A DNA stretch of 32,376 bases from positions 1 to 32,376 of the forward strand of contig CAISWS010000217.1 in the NCBI GenBank assembly GCA_903889265.1, in the 5' to 3' direction. Of this stretch, positions 15,265-30,003 are shown piece by piece (the first letter of the stretch is position 1; each line of letters starts with the position of its first letter). Origin of the DNA: an uncultured Bacteroidota bacterium. GTDB taxonomy: Bacteria; Bacteroidota; Bacteroidia; Chitinophagales; LD1. The position numbers and the translations under genes are program-made. The notes beneath the pieces are model-generated. The model saw only the letters and a list, made by a program, of their open reading frames with translations. It was not told where the DNA came from and made no database searches.

Positions 15265-16452
15265 ATGAATGAATCGCCTGAAGAATTGAGGCTTACTGCC
15301 AAAGCAATATATGGATTGGAGGAAGTGCTGTCGTTTGAATTGAAGAAATTAGGCGCACGCGATATTGAATTGCACAACCGTGCCGTAAGTTTTACAGGCG
15401 ATAAAGGGCTGATATATAAATGCAATTTACACCTGCGTACGGCATTACGCATATTGGTGCCGGTGGAGAAATTTAATGTTCAGGATGAACAAAGTCTGTA
15501 TGATGGTATTAAAGCCATTGATTGGGAAAAATACATGGGAGTGGATGATACCCTTGGTATTGATTGCGTATTGAACACTCCATTGTTCACCCACTCGTTA
15601 TTTATTGCCCAAAAGGCCAAGGACGCCATTGCCGATCAGTTCAGGGATAGGTATAACAAACGCCCGAGTGTTGATTTGGCAAAGCCCACATTGAGGATAC
15701 ACCTGCACGTTTACAACGATGTTTGTACGGTGGCTTTGGATAGCTCGGGTGAGAGCCTGCACAAACGGGGGTATAGGAGCCAGGTAAATCTGGCACCGAT
15801 GAATGAGGTGCTTGCTGCAGGACTTGTATTGCTCACCGGCTGGAACCGGAGTAGTAACTTAATTGACCCTATGTGCGGCTCAGGTACTATTCTGATTGAG
15901 GCTGCATTAATTGCCGCCAATATTCCGCCGGGATACTATAAAGACGATTTTGGCTTTATGCGCTGGAACCGTTTCCTGGCTTACGATCCTGAATTATGGC
16001 AACGAATTTACGATGCCGCCATTGACCGCATTGTTGAAGTATCGCCTAAAATATATGGGGGGGAGATTTCCCATAATGTAGCGCGCAAGGCAAAAGAGAA
16101 TGTAAAGTTTGCCAAGGTGGAAGACATGGTGCAGATACGCGAATGTGCTATGGAAGATTTTGAAGCACCGGAAGGTGGGGGGGTGGTAATTATGAACCCA
16201 CCTTACGGTGAGCGGATGAATTTACAGGATTCGAATGAATTATACGCCAGTATGGGCGATACTTTTAAAAAACGTTTTACCGGATATGACTGCTGGATTA
16301 TAAGCTCAAACATGGAGGCACTGAAATATGTGGGGCTTAAATCATCGCGCAGAATACCAGTGGCTAACGGGCATCTGGAATGCCGCTTTGTTAAGTATGA
16401 AATGTATAGCGGCACTAAGAGGGTTTTTAAAGAAAAACCGGCTGAGGAATAA
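15265..16452 (+). CDS. THUMP-domain rRNA (guanine-N2) methyltransferase, RlmL-like
   Basis: A 395-residue protein matching the N-terminal half of E. coli RlmKL. An N-terminal ferredoxin-like/THUMP region for RNA binding runs at about 10-160. A Rossmann SAM-binding domain follows with DPMCGSGTILIEAAL at about 201 and the catalytic NPPYGER at about 311, which marks amino-methylation of a base. By family it makes m2G in 23S rRNA (position 2445 in E. coli numbering). The RlmK domain is absent, as in most bacteria outside gammaproteobacteria. ATG 15265 follows the divergent promoter region shared with the desaturase; TAGTTTAG, 13 nt upstream, is a possible -7 element. A 39-nt repeat element begins 6 nt after the stop codon. 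Confidence 0.88.
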   Translation: MNESPEELRLTAKAIYGLEEVLSFELKKLGARDIELHNRAVSFTGDKGLIYKCNLHLRTALRILVPVEKFNVQDEQSLYDGIKAIDWEKYMGVDDTLGIDCVLNTPLFTHSLFIAQKAKDAIADQFRDRYNKRPSVDLAKPTLRIHLHVYNDVCTVALDSSGESLHKRGYRSQVNLAPMNEVLAAGLVLLTGWNRSSNLIDPMCGSGTILIEAALIAANIPPGYYKDDFGFMRWNRFLAYDPELWQRIYDAAIDRIVEVSPKIYGGEISHNVARKAKENVKFAKVEDMVQIRECAMEDFEAPEGGGVVIMNPPYGERMNLQDSNELYASMGDTFKKRFTGYDCWIISSNMEALKYVGLKSSRRIPVANGHLECRFVKYEMYSGTKRVFKEKPAEE

Positions 16453-16458
16453 ATACAT

Positions 16459-16497
16459 TTTACTGTAAAGAAGCAAAGAGCGCAAAGGAATACTAAG
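16459..16497 (+). repeat. Heptad element, copy B (39 nt)
   Basis: TTTAC is followed by four heptads ending in AAG: TGTAAAG, AGCAAAG, CGCAAAG and TACTAAG, with spacers A, AG and GAA (1, 2 and 3 nt). The element is followed by GAAAAAT. Length, leader and spacing are identical to the copy at 21999-22037, although the heptads differ. It lies between the convergent rRNA methyltransferase (stop 16452) and glycosyltransferase (stop 16583) genes. I see no terminator hairpin in this gap. Confidence 0.65.
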
Positions 16498-16582
16498 GAA
16501 AAATAAAATACGTTTTGTTGAAAGCCTGATTTATGCCTCTATAAACCTGGGCTGTTTCTTTGCAGTAGAAATCTATTAAAAA

Positions 16583-17311
16583 TTAGCTGCTCCTGCCCCC
16601 CAAAATTGCCCGCAAAAATATTTTAGCAAAATTGCCTGACTCCTGTATCAGCACTTTCCATGGCATGGTTGATAACTCGAAGCCATTGCGCAACTCTACT
16701 GTAACAGGTTTGATTAAAAGCCCTTTTTGTGCCGATAGAAATATAAATTCCAGGTCGAAAAGAAATCGATCTATTGAGGTGTTCAGGAATATTTTTTTAC
16801 CAGCCTGATCAAACCCCTTTAGTCCGCATTGGGTATCATCGGTTGGTATTTGTAAGAAGGTTCGGATTAGGAAACGGAGAAAATGCGAAATTCTGACCCG
16901 GGATGGTGGTAAGTGTTTATAATACTCATCGGACCTGTTGCCGGGCACCACATTATAACCTCCGGATTTAAGCGCATTGTAAACAGATTGCAGGCTTTGT
17001 TTTGTGTAGGGGAAATCCACATCCGTGTAAATAACCAGCTGACCCATGGAGACGGCAACTCCCTGGCGCAGGGCAAATCCTTTCCCCCGATTTTTCTCAT
17101 ACGAAATGAATTTAATTTTTTCGTGAGGGCCGAAAAACCGGCGGGTGGCTTCAGGATCGAAGCCAGTGTGGCTTCCATCGTTTACTATGATAAGCTCTGT
17201 TGCAGGTTCATATCCTGATATAAAAATGTAATTGGCCAATACATTTTCGCGCCAGCCGGGGGCAGGGTTATAGCAAGGCACTACAATAGAAAGGACCACA
17301 GTTTCAGGCAT
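16583..17311 (-). CDS. Family-2 glycosyltransferase (polyprenyl-phosphate sugar synthase-like)
   Basis: A 242-residue cytosolic GT-A glycosyltransferase. It shows VVPCYNP at 10-16, VNDGS at 43-47, KNRGKGFALRQG at 73-84, the metal-binding TDVDFPY at 96-102, and DTQCGLKGF in the acceptor region. Length and the NRGKG/GLKGF motifs resemble dolichyl-phosphate or undecaprenyl-phosphate glucosyl/mannosyl transferases, but no C-terminal membrane segments are present. The sugar and acceptor are not determinable. ATG 17311 is chosen over a TTG four codons upstream; TACTTTTA at 17328-17335 (minus strand) is a near-match -7 element 16 nt before it. The gene lies 66 nt downstream of the patatin gene on the same strand, so co-transcription is possible. 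Confidence 0.85.
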   Translation of the reverse strand: MPETVVLSIVVPCYNPAPGWRENVLANYIFISGYEPATELIIVNDGSHTGFDPEATRRFFGPHEKIKFISYEKNRGKGFALRQGVAVSMGQLVIYTDVDFPYTKQSLQSVYNALKSGGYNVVPGNRSDEYYKHLPPSRVRISHFLRFLIRTFLQIPTDDTQCGLKGFDQAGKKIFLNTSIDRFLFDLEFIFLSAQKGLLIKPVTVELRNGFELSTMPWKVLIQESGNFAKIFLRAILGGRSS

Positions 17312-17377
17312 AATTTTCAACAAAAATTAAAAGTAAGATTATTCGGCAAAAGGGATATTGTCGGCGAGCGGCTTTAA

Positions 17378-19618
17378 TTACTTCGAAAGCAATAACTGCA
17401 ACTTATTAAACGCTGTAATATTGTTTGAGCGTTTCAGCGAATTAAGGATATCGCTTTTATCCCGTGATGTAATGTGCATGCTTACCGCAGCTTTTTCTTC
17501 TTTTTTGTTGCTGGTATATTCGAAAAGAACAAAATTGAGTTTGCCCTTCAGTTCGTCATCAATGTAATTAAATTTCTGGTCTACCAGAAAGTCCTGCATT
17601 CTGTCCATATTGGTGTAAACCGTTCCCAACGGGTCGGTAAAGCGAGACATCATGGTGGTTTGCAATTGTTCCTCGGGCTCCCCTGACTTTTCTTCATCCC
17701 TTATTTCAATTACTACCACACCGCCGGTATTTTTATTTATCCAGTCCTTAAAGGATTGTAGAAACCTGAAGGTGGGCTCGACACCGGCATCGTCCAACGC
17801 GCCACCATCCATTACATAAGTAGGCGGGGTAGTAGGTAACACCGGGTTGGGTAGTATAAAAGGAAAAGTAGCATCCATTCGCATGGCCGATGTAACCAGT
17901 AAATTAGCCCCATCCTGTTTTTCAAAAAACTTGCAAAAATCTATTCCGTCAACGGCTAACTGGTTGCCCTCGGCATTTTTACCATAAGGGCGCATCAGGA
18001 ATGAAACCGGTTGGGCACTTATAAAGTACCGCCGCGAATCGTTCATAATAGTGGTATAGTATATCATCATAGGCACTTTGGCCTTAAACTCCGCATCTTT
18101 ATAATCGCCAATGGTTTTATCAAACCTGAAATTGGTATTGCGGCAATAAAATTTTTCAAAAATATAGCCCCGGTCCTGCGCATACGTGTTGTTGCCGAGT
18201 TTAAATTTATGAATGGGTGCTAGCCCATCGTTGCTGAGGATAGAAACCGCCATTGGATTCAGCAGGTCTTTTGCCACATTTAAGGCATACTGAGGATCCT
18301 GGAGGTTTATTGGGAATCCTTCTTTTTTCTGCAAAAATAATTCGCGCAGGTAGGTGGTACCAAACATGCCGCCCGATGCCCCTGAAATAAGAAAAGTTTT
18401 ATCGAGCAGTTTACCGCCGGCAAGGCTATCGCAACGCTGTAGAACGGACATTACAAACATGGCTGAACGCAAGCCGCCGCCGCTTACATTAATAAAGTAC
18501 AAAACCGGTTTTTTGTAAGGATCTTTTGGGTCGGTATTTTTTGTTTTCCAGTTTTCAAAAATCTGTGTAACGTATTTTTTATCTTTTTCTATAATCGAAT
18601 CGGTTGAAATGGCCCTAAACCTTTCCAGGTTGTAAGGAGCTTTTTCGGTTTTGTAATTTAAGCCGTAAACAGTGTTTTGCAATCCGAAGAGATCATATTT
18701 GGTAAGCTGATTGGCAAGCACTAAAAAAACAATAATAGCTGTGGAGCCCCAGCCACCCGTCCAGTATAAAAACATACCAAAAAGCGACATAAGCACGCAT
18801 AAGAACAGGAAGGCGCTTGTGGCTACCGGAAATTGAAAGAAAGGATTTTCGAGCCAATACCCGGCTGAAATAAGCACAGCAAAGGCACATATAAAAGCTA
18901 TAAAGGCATTCCAGTGGTGGCGCCTGAAAACCAGTTGGTAAAGTGCGGGGTCGTAGTGCTCAACATTGCGGGTCGGCATTATGCCAAATGTATTTGTTAT
19001 GTAATAATCAACCCGGTTGTTGTCGTGAAGTGTTTCGAGCGAATTATTAAACTGCACTTTGCGAATTGCCTTTTTTGTCCGTAATTTTTCTTTGTTAGCC
19101 TGTATAATGCTACCGGCGTTTGGATTAGTAAGGCCAAAAAAAGTGCCTGTTATAAAGAGCATGAAGGAAAAACCAGCGCTGAACCCGAGCAGGTTGAAAA
19201 GGATGGTGCTATAGCTTTTAAACTCGTTGTGCGTTTGAAAAATGACGATGGCCGAGAAGTAAGCAATAATAAAAGCCAGCGGTATGATGGAGTTATTAAT
19301 AAAAAACATGGCAAGCGGGTACCGAAGGCTGGCCATAAAAGGGAACCGGTAGCTGTGCAGAATGTACATTACAATGTTCCAGGTAACAAACATGGCACCG
19401 AAACCAATACCTACCACGGCAAAACTGAGGTAATCTACCTGACCCAGGTATTCAGGGTCAAGAAAAACTGCGGGAATGCCAAGGCCGGCACCAAAGCGGC
19501 CTACAATAGGTAGTGTAAGAAATATCCAAAAAAGAACAAGAAACTGCTGTCGCTTAAAAGAGAGCAGAAGCAACTGAATGGGGAATGAATAATAAATTTC
19601 TCGCAGTGTTTTTATCAT
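17378..19618 (-). CDS. Patatin-like phospholipase with a polytopic membrane domain
   Basis: A 746-residue protein. The N-terminal 320 or so residues hold about seven hydrophobic, membrane-spanning stretches (for example FWIFLTLPIVG, LSFAVVGIGFGAMFV, AFIAFICAFAVLISAG). A patatin-type hydrolase domain follows: an oxyanion loop SGGGLRSAMF at about 377, the nucleophile elbow GASGG at about 411, and the DGGALDDAG aspartate of the Ser-Asp dyad at about 600. Patatins cleave acyl esters in membrane lipids; coupling to a membrane domain suggests activity at or in the inner membrane. The substrate is unknown. The start at ATG 19618 (MIKTLREIYY) is preferred over an upstream TTG. It is preceded by 103 nt after the small exported protein and followed by the glycosyltransferase 66 nt away. 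Confidence 0.85.
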   Translation of the reverse strand: MIKTLREIYYSFPIQLLLLSFKRQQFLVLFWIFLTLPIVGRFGAGLGIPAVFLDPEYLGQVDYLSFAVVGIGFGAMFVTWNIVMYILHSYRFPFMASLRYPLAMFFINNSIIPLAFIIAYFSAIVIFQTHNEFKSYSTILFNLLGFSAGFSFMLFITGTFFGLTNPNAGSIIQANKEKLRTKKAIRKVQFNNSLETLHDNNRVDYYITNTFGIMPTRNVEHYDPALYQLVFRRHHWNAFIAFICAFAVLISAGYWLENPFFQFPVATSAFLFLCVLMSLFGMFLYWTGGWGSTAIIVFLVLANQLTKYDLFGLQNTVYGLNYKTEKAPYNLERFRAISTDSIIEKDKKYVTQIFENWKTKNTDPKDPYKKPVLYFINVSGGGLRSAMFVMSVLQRCDSLAGGKLLDKTFLISGASGGMFGTTYLRELFLQKKEGFPINLQDPQYALNVAKDLLNPMAVSILSNDGLAPIHKFKLGNNTYAQDRGYIFEKFYCRNTNFRFDKTIGDYKDAEFKAKVPMMIYYTTIMNDSRRYFISAQPVSFLMRPYGKNAEGNQLAVDGIDFCKFFEKQDGANLLVTSAMRMDATFPFILPNPVLPTTPPTYVMDGGALDDAGVEPTFRFLQSFKDWINKNTGGVVVIEIRDEEKSGEPEEQLQTTMMSRFTDPLGTVYTNMDRMQDFLVDQKFNYIDDELKGKLNFVLFEYTSNKKEEKAAVSMHITSRDKSDILNSLKRSNNITAFNKLQLLLSK

Positions 19619-19721
19619 CGCTAAAACCAGGGTTGAAGTTACGATAAGGATATATGCTGCGGTCGCAAAGTTGAAACAAATCAACTATAGGGGGAAGAGG
19701 TTGTTTAGCCCAGAGTACAAT

Positions 19722-20327
19722 CTATGGGTTTTTTATTTCAAGCAAAACCGCAGTCCAACCAATATCCAGTTTAAATATAAGGGGGAATTTAGATGATTCA
19801 AGAATATCAATGGTGTACTTCGGGTCGGTACCGCCCTGAAGCTCGGAACCTGGTACCACCACTACATTGCCATTAATGGTAAAATTGAAATCGCCGATGG
19901 TATTGCCCATTACAGTAGCCGTATCTGCGGCCCCGTTTATTTTTAGAGAAGCCTGGGCATTAGTTGAAATGCTATTGGTTACCTGTTTGCTGACCCATAG
20001 GCAGGTTTCTTTATCAAGCCTTACATCGCCTGCTTTGAGGATATTTGAAAGTGCCTGCGCTTCGGCAGTAGCACCAGGGCTCATGGTAACGGTACCGTTT
20101 TTGTTGTCGGGGTCGGTGGTTTTCCAGCTAAAGGATACCTCATCACCCAGTTTTTTAAGGGTTACTATGAGGCTGTAATGTTTGTCTTTGGCAGTTACAT
20201 CATAGGTTAATTGTGCACCTGGTTTCATTGATTTCTCAAATGTTTCAAGGTCTGCCAGGTCCTGGGCCGAAATGCGGTTTGATGCAATACTAAAAGCTGC
20301 GATAAGAATAAAGTATATTTTTTTCAT
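19722..20327 (-). CDS. Exported protein of unknown function
   Basis: A 201-residue protein with a clear signal peptide (MKKIYFILIAAFSIASNRISAQ) and a mature part of mainly beta strands. It has no cysteine lipobox and no T9SS signal, so a periplasmic location is likely. Recognisable phrases include LTYDVTAKDKHYSLIVTL and FSWKTTDPDNKNGTVTMS, but I cannot assign a family. The ATG at 20327 is 18 nt downstream of a very good promoter, and the longer frame to 20357 would begin upstream of that promoter. It stands in a run of minus-strand genes but probably has its own transcript. Confidence 0.75.
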   Translation of the reverse strand: MKKIYFILIAAFSIASNRISAQDLADLETFEKSMKPGAQLTYDVTAKDKHYSLIVTLKKLGDEVSFSWKTTDPDNKNGTVTMSPGATAEAQALSNILKAGDVRLDKETCLWVSKQVTNSISTNAQASLKINGAADTATVMGNTIGDFNFTINGNVVVVPGSELQGGTDPKYTIDILESSKFPLIFKLDIGWTAVLLEIKNP

Positions 20328-20345
20328 GGATTTGTTGCTTGTTTT

Positions 20346-20376
20346 CAAAGGTAACAACGGGAATGAGAAAAGCGAA
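20346..20376 (-). promoter_or_regulatory. Bacteroidota-type promoter of the small exported protein
   Basis: On the minus strand, TTCG (20373-20376), 19 nt, then TACCTTTG (20346-20353), which is a perfect TAnnTTTG -7 element with a one-mismatch -33 box at the usual distance. It ends 18 nt before the ATG at 20327. Confidence 0.6.
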
Positions 20377-20395
20377 AAAATCCGGGTGCCAATTT

Positions 20396-21919
20396 TTACT
20401 GAGCCTCAATGGCCCCAATGTCGTACTTAAAGGGATTACTTGTTTTTGAAACCGGGCGGGGGTGATCGTACAGGTCAGTAGGGAAGCCGGTTGGGCAGTA
20501 ATCTATCAGCGGAGAAAAATAGCCGGAAACCGGAGATGAGTTATTGGTGCTATCGCTGAGGGTAAAAATGTTAGCGCTTGCGTTATTAAACAAGGGATTT
20601 TGATTAAATAAGTTTTTGGTATTGGTGGTTGAGAACATGGCGAGGGTATCAGCCGGGGTTGTCATCAGGCAATAGCTGAACGAGTTATTGAAGCGGGCGA
20701 GGTCTAAATTATCGAAATTGCTAAAGGTAATTTCGTTAGGTAAATTACCATAGATGGCGCAGTTGGTAAAAGTGGAGGTAAGCGGCTGTGGATAGAAAGT
20801 AGTGCCCTTTGCATAAGTTACTCCCAATACATTGCTTAATAATAAAATGGGTGTTTGGTGGCTGACATAGGAATTGCCAAAATTGTACATAGTACAATTA
20901 GTGAAATTATAGACCCCCCCCAGCGCTAATTTAACCAGGTTATCGCCACTGGTATAAAAGAGGGAATTTTCGGCAGTGATATTGGCATTGAAACCATAGA
21001 TGGCGTTGTACTGCGAATTGGAAACAATGCTTTTTTGAATATTAATAACCGGCATTTGCTCCGTGCCCAGAAAGTCGGTTGCATTTACAACGGTGGCGGA
21101 AATTGCACCGGCATAAATGCCGTACTGAGATTCGTTAACAACGCAATGATTGAAATTACCCTGAGCCACGCAACTGTTGCTTCGCAAAAACACGATGCCA
21201 AACCATTGACCCGGTAAGTCCTGGTAATACTGTTCCAGTCTTACTCCCCGGAAGATGATAGAGTCGTGCCAATCGTGCGCGACAGCGTTTAAAGTGCCCT
21301 GAACAAAGAGCGCGGAATTAGCCTGGAAAAGGACTTTGCAACCAGGTTTAATATTTAAGGTTGCACCACATTCTACATAAACTCCCGGGATGCTGTTAGT
21401 GCCAAGTATTACGTGAGGTAAATCATTATTCCAGGTTTCGGTATGCCCGGCATAAACGGTCTCTCCATAATGAAAGTGGGCATTCTGGCCGAAGGCCTGC
21501 AGAAATACGGTTTCGGTAGTATTGCCGATAGTGAAATTTACATTGTCAATAATTACAAAAGGGGTGGCGGTGCTGTTGGGGTTAACGGTTACCTCCACAA
21601 AAATATAAATGGAGTCGCGGCCGGGTATTTGCACATTGGTAAAGCTGGTGCCTGCAATGCCGTCTACGTTAATACGATATTGGGTGCCCTGTAACTGCTG
21701 TAGTTTAATGCTATTGATAGTTAAAGGCTGCCGACTGTGGTTGAATACTTTAAAGTATTGCGTGGTAGAGCCCAGGGTTGTAAAAACGGTATCGAAGGTA
21801 AGTGTATCGGTGCTAAACGAAAGATTACTGACACTGGCAGCATCTTTTTTGCAATTGCTGAAAAACAGCAACACCGCCGAAACGCTTAAAACCAAAATAA
21901 ACCTCAAAGCTTTTGCCAC
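20396..21919 (-). CDS. Beta-helix lipoprotein (choice-of-anchor Q-like C-terminus)
   Basis: A 507-residue predicted lipoprotein. The N-terminus MAKALRFILVLSVSAVLLF is followed by FSNCKKD, a lipobox whose cysteine would be residue 23, with the lysines that often follow it in Bacteroidota lipoproteins. An Ig-like domain follows (YFKVFNHSRQPLTINSIKL), then a right-handed parallel beta-helix with many short NCxxY/xFxNC rungs (for example NFTNCTMYNFGNSY, FTNCAIYGNL). The C-terminus YDHPRPVSKTSNPFKYDIGAIEAQ (24 residues, of which DHPRP and DIGAIEA are the hallmarks) is typical of this family. The start is GTG 21919: the open frame extends to a TTG at 22060, but that extension would translate the heptad repeat and bury the signal peptide. 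The function is unknown; polysaccharide binding or cleavage is a common role of this fold. Confidence 0.8.
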   Translation of the reverse strand: MAKALRFILVLSVSAVLLFFSNCKKDAASVSNLSFSTDTLTFDTVFTTLGSTTQYFKVFNHSRQPLTINSIKLQQLQGTQYRINVDGIAGTSFTNVQIPGRDSIYIFVEVTVNPNSTATPFVIIDNVNFTIGNTTETVFLQAFGQNAHFHYGETVYAGHTETWNNDLPHVILGTNSIPGVYVECGATLNIKPGCKVLFQANSALFVQGTLNAVAHDWHDSIIFRGVRLEQYYQDLPGQWFGIVFLRSNSCVAQGNFNHCVVNESQYGIYAGAISATVVNATDFLGTEQMPVINIQKSIVSNSQYNAIYGFNANITAENSLFYTSGDNLVKLALGGVYNFTNCTMYNFGNSYVSHQTPILLLSNVLGVTYAKGTTFYPQPLTSTFTNCAIYGNLPNEITFSNFDNLDLARFNNSFSYCLMTTPADTLAMFSTTNTKNLFNQNPLFNNASANIFTLSDSTNNSSPVSGYFSPLIDYCPTGFPTDLYDHPRPVSKTSNPFKYDIGAIEAQ

Positions 21920-21998
21920 TGGTAACGTACTGTTGTGTTTAAATTCCGCCTGATAAACGGTTGGTGAAAATAGAAATTGTATCTGATATGAAGAGAAA

Positions 21999-22037
21999 TT
22001 TACCACTAAGACACTAAGTGCACTAAGAACCACTAAG
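21999..22037 (+). repeat. Heptad element, copy A (39 nt)
   Basis: TTTAC is followed by four identical CACTAAG heptads (22004, 22012, 22021, 22031) separated by A, TG and AAC, so start-to-start distances are 8, 9 and 10 nt. AAATT follows. It lies in the 168-bp gap between the RlmD-like gene and the lipoprotein gene, both minus strand, so in the mRNA sense it reads as CTTAGTG repeats. It is the cleaner of the two copies in this window. Confidence 0.7.
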
Positions 22038-22087
22038 AAATTGGATGTAAATAACCCCAAAGAAAAACGAAACGGTCATTTTACACT

Positions 22088-23494
22088 TTATCTCTTCAAC
22101 TCCAGGCGCACTACGTTTTCAATGTGGGTGGTTTGGGGGAACATATCCACTGGTTGAACGCGTTTTACTTCGTATTTCTCATCTAAAAGCTGCAGGTCGC
22201 GGGCCTGGGTGGCGGGGTTGCAGCTTACGTAGATAATTTTAGGGGCTTCCAGCTGTAACAGGGTTTTTACAACATCCTCGTGCATGCCGGCCCTGGGTGG
22301 GTCGGTAATTACTACATCTGGTTTGCCGTTTGATGCGATAAAATCTTCTTTTAAAATCATCCGCACATCGCCCGAATAGAAAGAGCAATTGGTAACGTTG
22401 TTTAAGCCGGCATTTATTTTCGCGTCTTGAATAGCTGCTTCTACCTGTTCAATGCCCGCTACTCTTTTGCATGAGTCTGAAACGTAAATGCCGATGCTTC
22501 CTACCCCGGTATAGAGGTCGTAAACCGTATCTTCGGAATTCAGATCTGCAAACTCTTTAGTAATATCATAAAGAACTTTTGCCTGTACGGAGTTAGTTTG
22601 AAAAAAGGACTTGGGGCCAACTTTAAATCGGTATTTACCAAGTTGTTCAACTATATGGTCGTTGCCTTTATACACCACAGGCTCAAGGTCGTAGATGGTG
22701 TCGTTTTTCTTTGGGTTGTAAACGTATTGCAGAGAAGTGATTTGGGGGAAGGCAGTGTTTAAAAACTGCATTAAGTTTTCAATCTTTTCTTCGTCGTTTT
22801 CGAAAAAACTGACCAGCACCAACAACTCGCCTATTGAGGTATTGCGCACCATTAAGTTACGCAGCATGCCGAACTGTTTTTGCAGGTTGAAAAATGAATA
22901 GCCATTTTTTAAGGCAAAATCCTTAACGGCTAAACGTATTTTATTGCTGGGGTCTGCCTGCAGGTAGCAGTGTTCTACTTCTAACACACCCCAAAAATTG
23001 CCGGGCACATGAAAGCCCAGCCCGTTGCGGTGCTCAAACTCAATACCTGCAGCTACTTCGGCATCGGTTATCCAACGCCGGTCGGTAAAGGTGAATTCCA
23101 TTTTATTGCGGTAGTAATAGGGGTCTTTACAGCCCACTACCTCTGGTATTGCCGGAAAGGCCACTTTGCCAATACGGGTAAAAGCATCTTCAACAATCTG
23201 TCTTTTAAACTTCAACTGCTCGGCATATTGAATATGCTGCCATTTGCAGCCACCACATACGGTAAAGTGCGAGCATACGGGCTGTGTACGCAATGCTGAA
23301 GGTGATTTCAGCTGAGTAATAACTGCTTCTGCAAAACTTTTTTTGCTTCTTCTTATTTCCAAATCAACTACATCGCCGGGGACGGCAAATTCAGTAAAAA
23401 CTACTTTGCCATTTATTTTTGCAAAGCCCTTGCCTTCGCTGCTCATGCCTTCAATCGTTACATCTTCGGTTATCTTTCTTTCCCTGTCTGCCAC
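22088..23494 (-). CDS. rlmD: 23S rRNA (uracil-C5)-methyltransferase, RlmD/RumA family
   Basis: A 468-residue SAM-dependent enzyme that makes m5U in 23S rRNA (U1939 in E. coli numbering). An N-terminal TRAM domain (about 5-62) binds RNA. The [4Fe-4S] ligands are Cys74, Cys80, Cys83 (CSHFTVCGGC) and Cys176 (VEHCYLQ). The catalytic domain shows YDLYTGVGSIGIYVS for SAM binding, TDPPRAGM, and the catalytic cysteine in YVSCNPATQARDL near the C-terminus. The GTG at 23494 is the start: an in-frame TAA closes the frame 33 nt upstream and no ATG is available before residue 17. Related enzymes can modify more than one uridine (as in RlmCD), so the exact site is inferred. It is divergent from the DUF4412 gene. 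Confidence 0.9.
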   Translation of the reverse strand: MADRERKITEDVTIEGMSSEGKGFAKINGKVVFTEFAVPGDVVDLEIRRSKKSFAEAVITQLKSPSALRTQPVCSHFTVCGGCKWQHIQYAEQLKFKRQIVEDAFTRIGKVAFPAIPEVVGCKDPYYYRNKMEFTFTDRRWITDAEVAAGIEFEHRNGLGFHVPGNFWGVLEVEHCYLQADPSNKIRLAVKDFALKNGYSFFNLQKQFGMLRNLMVRNTSIGELLVLVSFFENDEEKIENLMQFLNTAFPQITSLQYVYNPKKNDTIYDLEPVVYKGNDHIVEQLGKYRFKVGPKSFFQTNSVQAKVLYDITKEFADLNSEDTVYDLYTGVGSIGIYVSDSCKRVAGIEQVEAAIQDAKINAGLNNVTNCSFYSGDVRMILKEDFIASNGKPDVVITDPPRAGMHEDVVKTLLQLEAPKIIYVSCNPATQARDLQLLDEKYEVKRVQPVDMFPQTTHIENVVRLELKR

Positions 23495-28384: not shown

Positions 28385-29314
28385 TTATTGAATAAGCGAT
28401 TCACGGGTTAGTTCAACTATCATCAGTATTTTAAATGCAAACCAGATATTGCCCTGTTCAATTTCCTGTTTAGCAAGCAGGTGCATTTCTTTTTCGAAGT
28501 CTTCAAAATTGCTACCGTATTTATCAATCAGCAGCTTTATTTCTGGCACCGGACCCATTTCGAACAATTCTTTCTCCTCGGGTAACCGCTCACTTGTTGC
28601 AATTTGAGCAATATCGTTGCCAGAAAGATATTTTGATTTTCTGATGCCTTCAGGTAGTTCGTCAAAACCCAAGCCCAGATTATCTGCCATTCTGAACGCC
28701 GGGACTTCGAATATATTTTCTTCACCAATGCGGCACCAGTATTGCTTGCTCATCCGGGCAATGTAATTCATCTTCAAGGGGTCGATGCTCTTGTTGGCAT
28801 CCAGCACGTTTTCGTTAATATGCATCATCACCACTTCGCAAATTATCAGGTTGCCTGCACCGCCGCCCTGGCCGGTTTCTATCACCTGTTTTACCTTGCA
28901 CTCCATTTGCACGTTGGCTTCTGCTACCCGTGGTGGTTTTACTATTTCCGACGCCAGCGCTGTTAAGCCCGACTTGGTAAATTCGTTTACGCCTTTAGGA
29001 TACATGTTTGCGGCCAGGTTCATTTGGTACAGCATGTCATAATGAGCAATGTTTACTACGCACTCATCAACCTCAACTACATTATTGTGTGTGTTTTTGG
29101 TTTGCAGGGTTTTGCCGGAACGGGCGGGCGAAAATATAAGTGTGGGTGGATTAGAACCGAATACATTGAAGAAACTGAACGGGGCAAGGTTAACATTCCC
29201 TTCCTTATCTATGGTGCTTACAAAAGCAATGGGCCTTGGGGCAACCGCACTTAATAAATACTCGTGTAATTTTGAACCGGGTACTTCGCCGGGTTTAATT
29301 TTTAGCATGGACAT
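28385..29314 (-). CDS. Flavin reductase-like FMN-binding split-barrel protein
   Basis: A 309-residue protein. The N-terminal 200 or so residues form the flavin reductase-like split barrel (SAVAPRPIAFVSTIDKEGN, LAPFSFFNVFGSNPPTL, VNIAHYDML). Such proteins bind FMN and reduce flavin, often for a partner oxygenase. The remaining 100 residues are a helical extension (YLSGNDIAQIATSERLPEEK), common in the Bacteroidota members. Its start ATG 29314 overlaps the end of the HEPN gene by 20 nt, showing translational coupling. A second ATG at 29308 is possible. No oxygenase partner is within the window. Confidence 0.85.
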   Translation of the reverse strand: MSMLKIKPGEVPGSKLHEYLLSAVAPRPIAFVSTIDKEGNVNLAPFSFFNVFGSNPPTLIFSPARSGKTLQTKNTHNNVVEVDECVVNIAHYDMLYQMNLAANMYPKGVNEFTKSGLTALASEIVKPPRVAEANVQMECKVKQVIETGQGGGAGNLIICEVVMMHINENVLDANKSIDPLKMNYIARMSKQYWCRIGEENIFEVPAFRMADNLGLGFDELPEGIRKSKYLSGNDIAQIATSERLPEEKELFEMGPVPEIKLLIDKYGSNFEDFEKEMHLLAKQEIEQGNIWFAFKILMIVELTRESLIQ

Positions 29315-29681
29315 AAGTTTTCATGGCATCATAAAACTGACGGGCTAAAAGCAGTGCAACTTGCTTTTCGTCGGCGTACACCTGATGGTCAGGTTCGTAA
29401 TCACCTTTAATTCTCAGTTCTTCTACCCTTTGAGGGATTTTCTTGATTTCATCGTTAAAAATTCCTGTTTTAATGAAATGTTGATGGAATTGAACGTGAG
29501 CGCCCTGATGAGTTTTAACCATAATGTCCAGTGATTGTAATCCGGCCTGAAGGCTATTAAATATGGAATAATAGGATCTGTTTACGCTTCCTATGTAAAG
29601 GTGGGCATCATAAAGGACTTGTGCTTCGTTTATACATTCGTTAGCTCTGGCTATCAGTATTAAAACTTCTTCTTTCCCCAT
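29295..29681 (-). CDS. HEPN-domain protein, partner of the adjacent nucleotidyltransferase
   Basis: A 128-residue, all-helical HEPN-domain protein. The family pattern is visible: NRSYYSIFNSLQAGL at 34-48, the KTHQGAH loop at 56-62, HFIKTG at 68-73 and DYEPDHQVYADEKQVALLL at 94-112. The RNase motif of HEPN toxins (R, four to six residues, H) is not found, so an mRNA-cleaving toxin role is not supported by sequence. ATG 29681 follows the nucleotidyltransferase stop after one nucleotide, which is the classic MNT-HEPN arrangement. The longer frame from 29735 would overlap the neighbour and has no start support. The function may be substrate binding for the nucleotidyltransferase. Confidence 0.82.
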   Translation of the reverse strand: MGKEEVLILIARANECINEAQVLYDAHLYIGSVNRSYYSIFNSLQAGLQSLDIMVKTHQGAHVQFHQHFIKTGIFNDEIKKIPQRVEELRIKGDYEPDHQVYADEKQVALLLARQFYDAMKTYVHAKN

Positions 29682-29682
29682 T

Positions 29683-30003
29683 TTAGATTTCTTTGCCCTC
29701 TTTTCGTACCCAATATAATAACGGAGTTTTGGCATTATAAAATTTTTGGGCGGTCATGGGAAGACAATGTATTCTTAAATATGTATGTTCCCATAAATCA
29801 TAAACGAAATCGGCAATCTGATTTGATTCCTTTGCCGCGGGTAGAGTTTCATCGTTTAACACAACTAAAAAATCAAAATCAGAGTCTTCGCTAAAATCAC
29901 CCCGGGCCCTTGACCCGTACAAAACAATTTTGTCTACCCTTTCGCCAAAAATGTGGTGGATAGCATTTTTAAATTGAATGATTACATCGTTCTGATCAAG
30001 CAT
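29683..30003 (-). CDS. Minimal nucleotidyltransferase (MNT)
   Basis: A 106-residue protein of the polymerase-beta nucleotidyltransferase fold. The signature GSRARGDFSEDSDFDFLV is complete: Gly30-Ser31 and the metal-binding Asp42 and Asp44. The third acidic residue expected in a later strand is not evident (the strand reads YLRIHCLP), as in some family members. In MNT-HEPN systems this protein can attach nucleotides to its partner. It is encoded 17 nt after the small membrane protein gene and 1 nt before the HEPN gene. Confidence 0.85.
   Translation of the reverse strand: MLDQNDVIIQFKNAIHHIFGERVDKIVLYGSRARGDFSEDSDFDFLVVLNDETLPAAKESNQIADFVYDLWEHTYLRIHCLPMTAQKFYNAKTPLLYWVRKEGKEI

Follow-up and report, generated by a model that had tools for sequence, protein, structure and literature searches.

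Several described systems resemble the repeats analysed here. REPs and REPINs associated with RAYT (PMC3116915, PMC3733652) are short intergenic inverted pairs present in tens to hundreds of copies per genome, with singlets as decayed halves and genome-specific families associated with a gene. Our elements share these traits, but their arms are direct-repeat heptad arrays rather than palindromes, and their edge is TTYAC rather than a GTAG or CGTC tag. Their gene encodes a PD-(D/E)XK nuclease and lies inside the arms, and a Y1_Tnp match is lacking in some array-bearing genomes. As in MITEs, there are terminal inverted repeats, and small non-autonomous copies stand beside a larger gene-carrying copy with the same ends. 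Unlike MITEs, they showed no target-site duplication and enclose a gene (PF13366) that is not a known transposase; a transposase acting in trans may lie elsewhere in the genome. The TAACTGA heptamers of Beggiatoaceae, Cyanobacteria, and Bacteroidetes (PMC4679880) are also intergenic, directly repeated, and patchily distributed. However, they have another sequence, mostly lie just before start codons, and have not been described in an inverted-arm layout.

The fourth relative is the intervening sequence (IVS) of 23S rRNA with its S23 gene (PMC4990558), in which a small gene likewise lies between inverted arms with heptameric repeats. The Coxiella IVS combines an S23 ORF, heptameric repeats, and a 28-bp stem with excision by RNase III (PMC4990558). 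In contrast to our elements, which lie outside rRNA and carry a GxxExxY gene or nothing, S23 arms are spacer-less. Literature searches, which covered sources outside subscription journals, returned neither a published description of a palindromic heptad-arm repeat nor the array sequences themselves. GxxExxY was named in only two papers, in one of them in passing, and the family accessions gave no function.

The window, meaning the whole stretch of 32,376 nt analysed here, contains two such arrays with the following neighbours.

15265-16452, + strand: neighbour gene for an RlmL-like rRNA methyltransferase (Pfam UPF0020, THUMP, RlmL_1st)
16459-16497, + strand: solo arm 1, a TTTAC edge then four heptads; matches the pattern and the sequence model
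16464-16470, 16472-16478, 16481-16487, and 16491-16497, + strand: heptads of solo arm 1, spacers 1, 2, and 3 nt
21999-22037, + strand: solo arm 2, a TTTAC edge then CACTAAG four times; matches the pattern and the sequence model
starts at 22004, 22012, 22021, and 22031, + strand: heptads of solo arm 2, spacers 1, 2, and 3 nt
22088-23494, - strand: neighbour gene for a TRAM-domain (uracil-5-)-methyltransferase (Pfam PF05958, TRAM)

The first-pass annotation had described two 39-nt elements with TTTAC, four heptads ending in AAG, and spacers of 1, 2, and 3 nt, and both proved exact. Solo arm 1 reads TTTAC TGTAAAG a AGCAAAG ag CGCAAAG gaa TACTAAG and starts 7 nt past the stop codon of the rlmL-like gene. 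Solo arm 2 reads TTTAC CACTAAG a CACTAAG tg CACTAAG aac CACTAAG. The spacing also withstood comparison with shuffled sequence, as AAG-N5-AAG-N6-AAG-N7-AAG occurred twice in the window and never in 100 shuffles. An A-rich tail, which had been counted as part of the element, was not consistent, since the letters past heptad 4 differ between copies. Both copies had been placed between genes. Solo arm 2 falls within a long TTG-initiated ORF of a lipoprotein gene (20396-22060, - strand) whose signal peptide begins downstream of the arm, and is intergenic only if that gene starts later than the TTG ORF. Read-through of arrays in ORF calls (L445:1755-2606, - strand, and this window ORF on the same strand) yields spurious peptides such as TTKNTKNTKDTKEGTKK or LSVLVVNF.

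Scored with a sequence-only model built from 13 copies, the window contained only these two 39-nt sites. A search of the window revealed no inverted partner arm near either copy and no gene enclosed by them, and neither is close to rRNA. Their folding was no better than that of shuffles. Lacking both a nearby partner and a fold, the window copies are single arms whose partner has been lost, and they are probably inert. The first-pass annotation was right to see a non-coding element repeated in the genome, but the 39 nt do not stand alone: they form half of an inverted pair and, in the full version, the terminal arm of a unit that encodes GxxExxY.

This pairing was evident elsewhere in the same 5.1-Mb genome (G000), where the 13-copy model identified 91 sites (E <= 0.01). 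Further 1-2-3 copies had been expected there, and the AAG register matched 11 times, against once for the reversed pattern. Among pairs no more than 250 bp apart, 19 were convergent, with TTTAC outward, and 0 were divergent. Two facing arms form palindromes of 60-200 bp. Solo arm 2 belongs to the same class as the paired, facing arms at three of these loci (L007, L009, and L011). Composite elements (L009:1240-1406, L011:1352-1597, and L001:158-250) combine two arm types, with CGCAAAG-type arms within or next to CACTAAG-type ones, which looks like the insertion of one element into another. On contigs C154, C300, C86, C266, and C513, several arrays lie less than ~200 nt from a contig end. The repeats therefore probably break short-read assemblies, making draft copy numbers lower bounds, and heptad arms help explain both contig breaks and spurious repeat-derived ORFs.

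That spacing is kept was borne out, but the heptads do not drift freely. Solo arm 1 follows the subtype CGCAAAG a AGCAAAG ag CGCAAAG, which forms both arms of a congener's GxxExxY element (L076), and differs from those arms by two C-to-T changes in heptad 1. At the rlmL site of genome G010, a decayed orthologue retains three heptads with spacers 1 and 2 and has lost heptad 4. Kept spacing with changed heptads is accordingly the product of lineage-specific subtypes plus point-mutation decay. The array is absent from the rlmL site of G013. The rlmD site has no orthologous copy in relatives, and flanks there are unalignable.

The suggestion that similar arrays occur in many environmental bacteria held across about a dozen phyla. 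A strict pattern (AC plus four YRCNRAG heptads with spacers 1, 2, and 3) was present in at least 118 stretches of the genome collection, while our own arithmetic at uniform base composition gives a chance expectation below one match. The matches listed included Pseudomonadota, Acidobacteriota, Bacteroidota, Verrucomicrobiota, Chloroflexota, and Planctomycetota, together with Gemmatimonadota, Chlamydiota, Spirochaetota, Poribacteria, Aminicenantes, and one Methanothrix MAG. Twelve genomes, chosen only for having 1-2-3 arrays, contained 576 strict arrays and 0 matches to the reversed pattern. Counts reached 147 in Pinibacter aurantiacus (G069) and included 124 in G068, 67 in G066, 60 in G061, 30 in G065, 27 in G070, and 9 in G064. 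Partners of strict arrays across phyla (n = 98) were inward-facing in 45 cases and outward-facing in 7. Partner distances peaked at 62-107 bp, and a few lay near 540 bp, where a GxxExxY gene is enclosed. Paired copies from other genomes folded very stably as DNA (z of -6 to -15).

Within pairs, spacers 1 and 2 matched more often than between pairs in G069 (p = 0.03 and 0.006), as did spacer 2 in G066 (p = 0.05). Spacer 3 showed no such excess in either genome. The arms of a pair thus share history or are held complementary, except at spacer 3. In most G069 pairs, spacer 3 is CC- or CT-type (CCY-like) in one arm and TT-type (TTT-like) in the other. At L348-L366 of this genome, the spacer 3 mismatch leaves a stem bubble at a fixed place.

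The 1-2-3 spacing is real, but it is not the only one, as relatives also have 2-4 to 2-8, 2-2, and 1-1. Arrays of three heptads, with spacers left free (0-8), were found in 21 of 61 relatives. Spacing was mostly 1-2 in G010, G013, and G058, 2-5 to 2-8 in G050, 2-6 in G060, 2-7 or 2-8 in G006, and 2-4 in G002. Since genomes differ in their spacing, 1-2-3 is one of several lineage-specific codes. A spacing spectrum over independent loci was too small for use, with only 9 arrays.

The larger elements enclose a GxxExxY gene (PF13366, PD-(D/E)XK nuclease) between their arms. Of 61 relatives, 44 had such genes and 54 had S23 genes (PF05635; 23S-rRNA intervening-sequence protein). The majority of both sit between inverted arms, with median inverted-repeat scores of 37 against 19; a control made of other loci's arms is inflated because loci share arms. 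Arms of GxxExxY units repeat themselves at offsets of 8-11 nt, most strongly at 9. S23 arms repeat at offsets of exactly 7 nt (identity 0.59) and 14 nt (0.53), versus 0.25-0.28 in flanks. The GxxExxY protein matched its profile above the cut-off with GxxExxY, D, and ExK present, and its conserved residues (E, D, ExK, and Q) are those expected of a PD-(D/E)XK enzyme. An AlphaFold model built on 4 sequences reached a pLDDT of 41, too low for structural comparison.

Ten of the 12 array-selected genomes contained GxxExxY. In G061 and G066, the sole GxxExxY gene of the genome lies between full 1-2-3 arms, and one gene in G070 has full 1-2-3 arms on both sides. The arms are 1-2-3 and 1-2 in G071 and 1-2 in G067. 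Near codes occur in G062 (1-1-4 or 1-1-3; by one count 1-1-3/1-2-3) and G063 (2-1-2), two genomes whose spacings the register count over-reads. The (2, 5-8) arrays of G050 match that genome's own GxxExxY arms (2-6-2). Gene-less and gene-carrying elements thus share terminal inverted repeats within one genome in G061, G066, G070, and G050.

Other genomes departed from this arrangement. GxxExxY matches were absent from array-bearing G065 (30 arrays) and G002, and no GxxExxY gene of Chitinophagaceae G068 and G069 was flanked on both sides by 1-2-3 arms. In G000, CACTAAG 1-2-3 arms enclosed no GxxExxY gene. The array-rich genomes with no matching unit are G065, G068, G069, and, for the CACTAAG class, G000; there the autonomous copy is lost, the assembly is incomplete, or the mover is a different one. 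Two candidate 1-2-3-armed units were rejected. L397 has two arrays in the same direction on one side only, and the arrays of L410, also on one side only, are a complete hairpin element.

Arm sequence and protein phylogeny agreed. In a phylogeny of 87 GxxExxY domains, arm class required 20 changes versus 43.5 when shuffled (0 of 200 as low), and spacing class 13 versus 17.6 (0 of 500 as low). The deepest split, which is well supported, separates nearly all GAT-, TGATT-, and GGATT-type arms from the entire AG-type set. Elements with 1-2-3 or near codes from Acidobacteria, Chloroflexota, and Proteobacteria group together (90/83 support). Arm class tracking protein clade fits recognition of the arms, but arms and gene are physically linked, so that co-inheritance could also give a shared tree.

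Natural empty sites identify the gene-carrying unit as an insertion. In Sphingomonas parapaucimobilis (NZ_CP155749.1, L465:1438-1900), fabD and fabG of the fatty-acid operon are separated by a GxxExxY unit that has inverted arms and leaves fabG a ribosome-binding site. The same genes are ~15-35 nt apart, with no unit, in S. paeninsulae, Methylobacterium, Rhizobium, and Sinorhizobium. Across 36 paired elements from two genomes, flanks were unrelated beyond the edge, which is TTYAC in G069 and longer (~11 nt) in G066, and no consistent flank match indicative of target-site duplication was present in these pairs. Carriage by phages or plasmids was rejected, as 2.9 million viral contigs contained only 16 array stretches and GxxExxY was present on 8 of 72,556 plasmid records, where relatives are annotated 'GxxExxY protein'.

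With moderate confidence, we read the window elements as orphan arms of an interspersed palindromic family, REPIN- or MITE-like, whose arms are recognised by its own nuclease. This palindromic repeat is apparently mobile and very widespread. A small complete element comprises a TTYAC edge, a 1-2-3 heptad array, a loop of a few to ~100 nt, the inverted array, and a GTRAA edge. A large one has the same arms ~450 bp apart with GxxExxY as the sole gene between them, and we take the small elements to be its non-autonomous (MITE/REPIN-like) copies. We infer that the GxxExxY protein binds, cuts, and mobilises these elements. Most likely it recognises the arms, perhaps with one subunit per heptad, and its DNA cuts allow elements with matching arms to move or be maintained. 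Each nuclease lineage would have its own heptad and spacing code, 1-2-3 being one.

More tentatively, these elements could represent an as yet undescribed bacterial mobile class driven by a lone PD-(D/E)XK nuclease with no transposase, which reads 1-2-3 as a ruler-like code and spreads hundreds of gene-less palindromes. S23/IVS elements, whose heptads lack spacers, would then form a sister class. Both GxxExxY and S23 belong to the common orphan gene families of these bacteria. Their code-like arms, together with the gene-less intergenic copies, suggest a testable function in arm recognition and mobility, and could identify a large number of hitherto unexplained intergenic repeats across many phyla.

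Alternatively, the repeats might be of REPIN type and depend for movement on a host tyrosine (Y1) transposase such as RAYT, with GxxExxY a passenger trapped between two arms. The inverted-pair layout, intergenic sites, and lack of target duplication all resemble REPINs (PMC3116915), and most array-bearing genomes have Y1_Tnp genes. We nevertheless consider this unlikely. Y1_Tnp was not found in G064, G065, and G070 (9, 30, and 27 arrays; assemblies possibly incomplete) and occurs in genomes without heptad arrays. In addition, single arms are not palindromes, neither tag is present, and the arm code tracks GxxExxY phylogeny.

Somewhat less probable still is an IVS-like RNA role, in which the arm stem is excised from transcripts (e.g. 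by RNase III), an inserted gene is tolerated, and an oligomeric element protein places its subunits on the heptads. The Coxiella IVS (PMC4990558) offers a precedent, and S23 genes at L017-L020 and L101-L129 are enclosed by inverted arms whose heptads run head to tail (e.g. TATTTAG TAATTAG TATTAAG). The very stable fold of paired elements and the position of a GxxExxY unit inside the fab operon are also consistent with excision. However, solo arms like those of the window cannot form a stem, and the spread of copies still requires a DNA mechanism.

We regard as improbable that the arrays are host regulatory or structural sites under selection, such as terminators, mRNA-end stabilisers, or protein-binding sites. 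In favour of such sites, most arrays avoid long ORFs and slightly prefer the 3' ends of genes, 27 being closer to a stop codon and 13 to a start codon. Against selection on host sites, orthologous positions are not kept, being decayed in G010, absent in G013, and without a copy at the rlmD site, and array number ranges from 0 to 18 between congeners. No Rfam family matched at its gathering score; with window copies that do not fold, this also led us to reject a terminator or known RNA. Chance or simple tandem-repeat slippage, for which we found nothing beyond the repeated heptad itself, is refuted to near certainty by the shuffle and reversed-pattern controls.

Two observations concern other genes. 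The Akkermansiaceae genome of L178 (G067) has 32 Y1_Tnp matches in 3.5 Mb, far above the other genomes searched. Within the window, a HEPN-domain protein (29295-29735, - strand) adjoins a minimal nucleotidyltransferase (29683-30003, - strand), likely forming a HEPN-MNT toxin-antitoxin pair.
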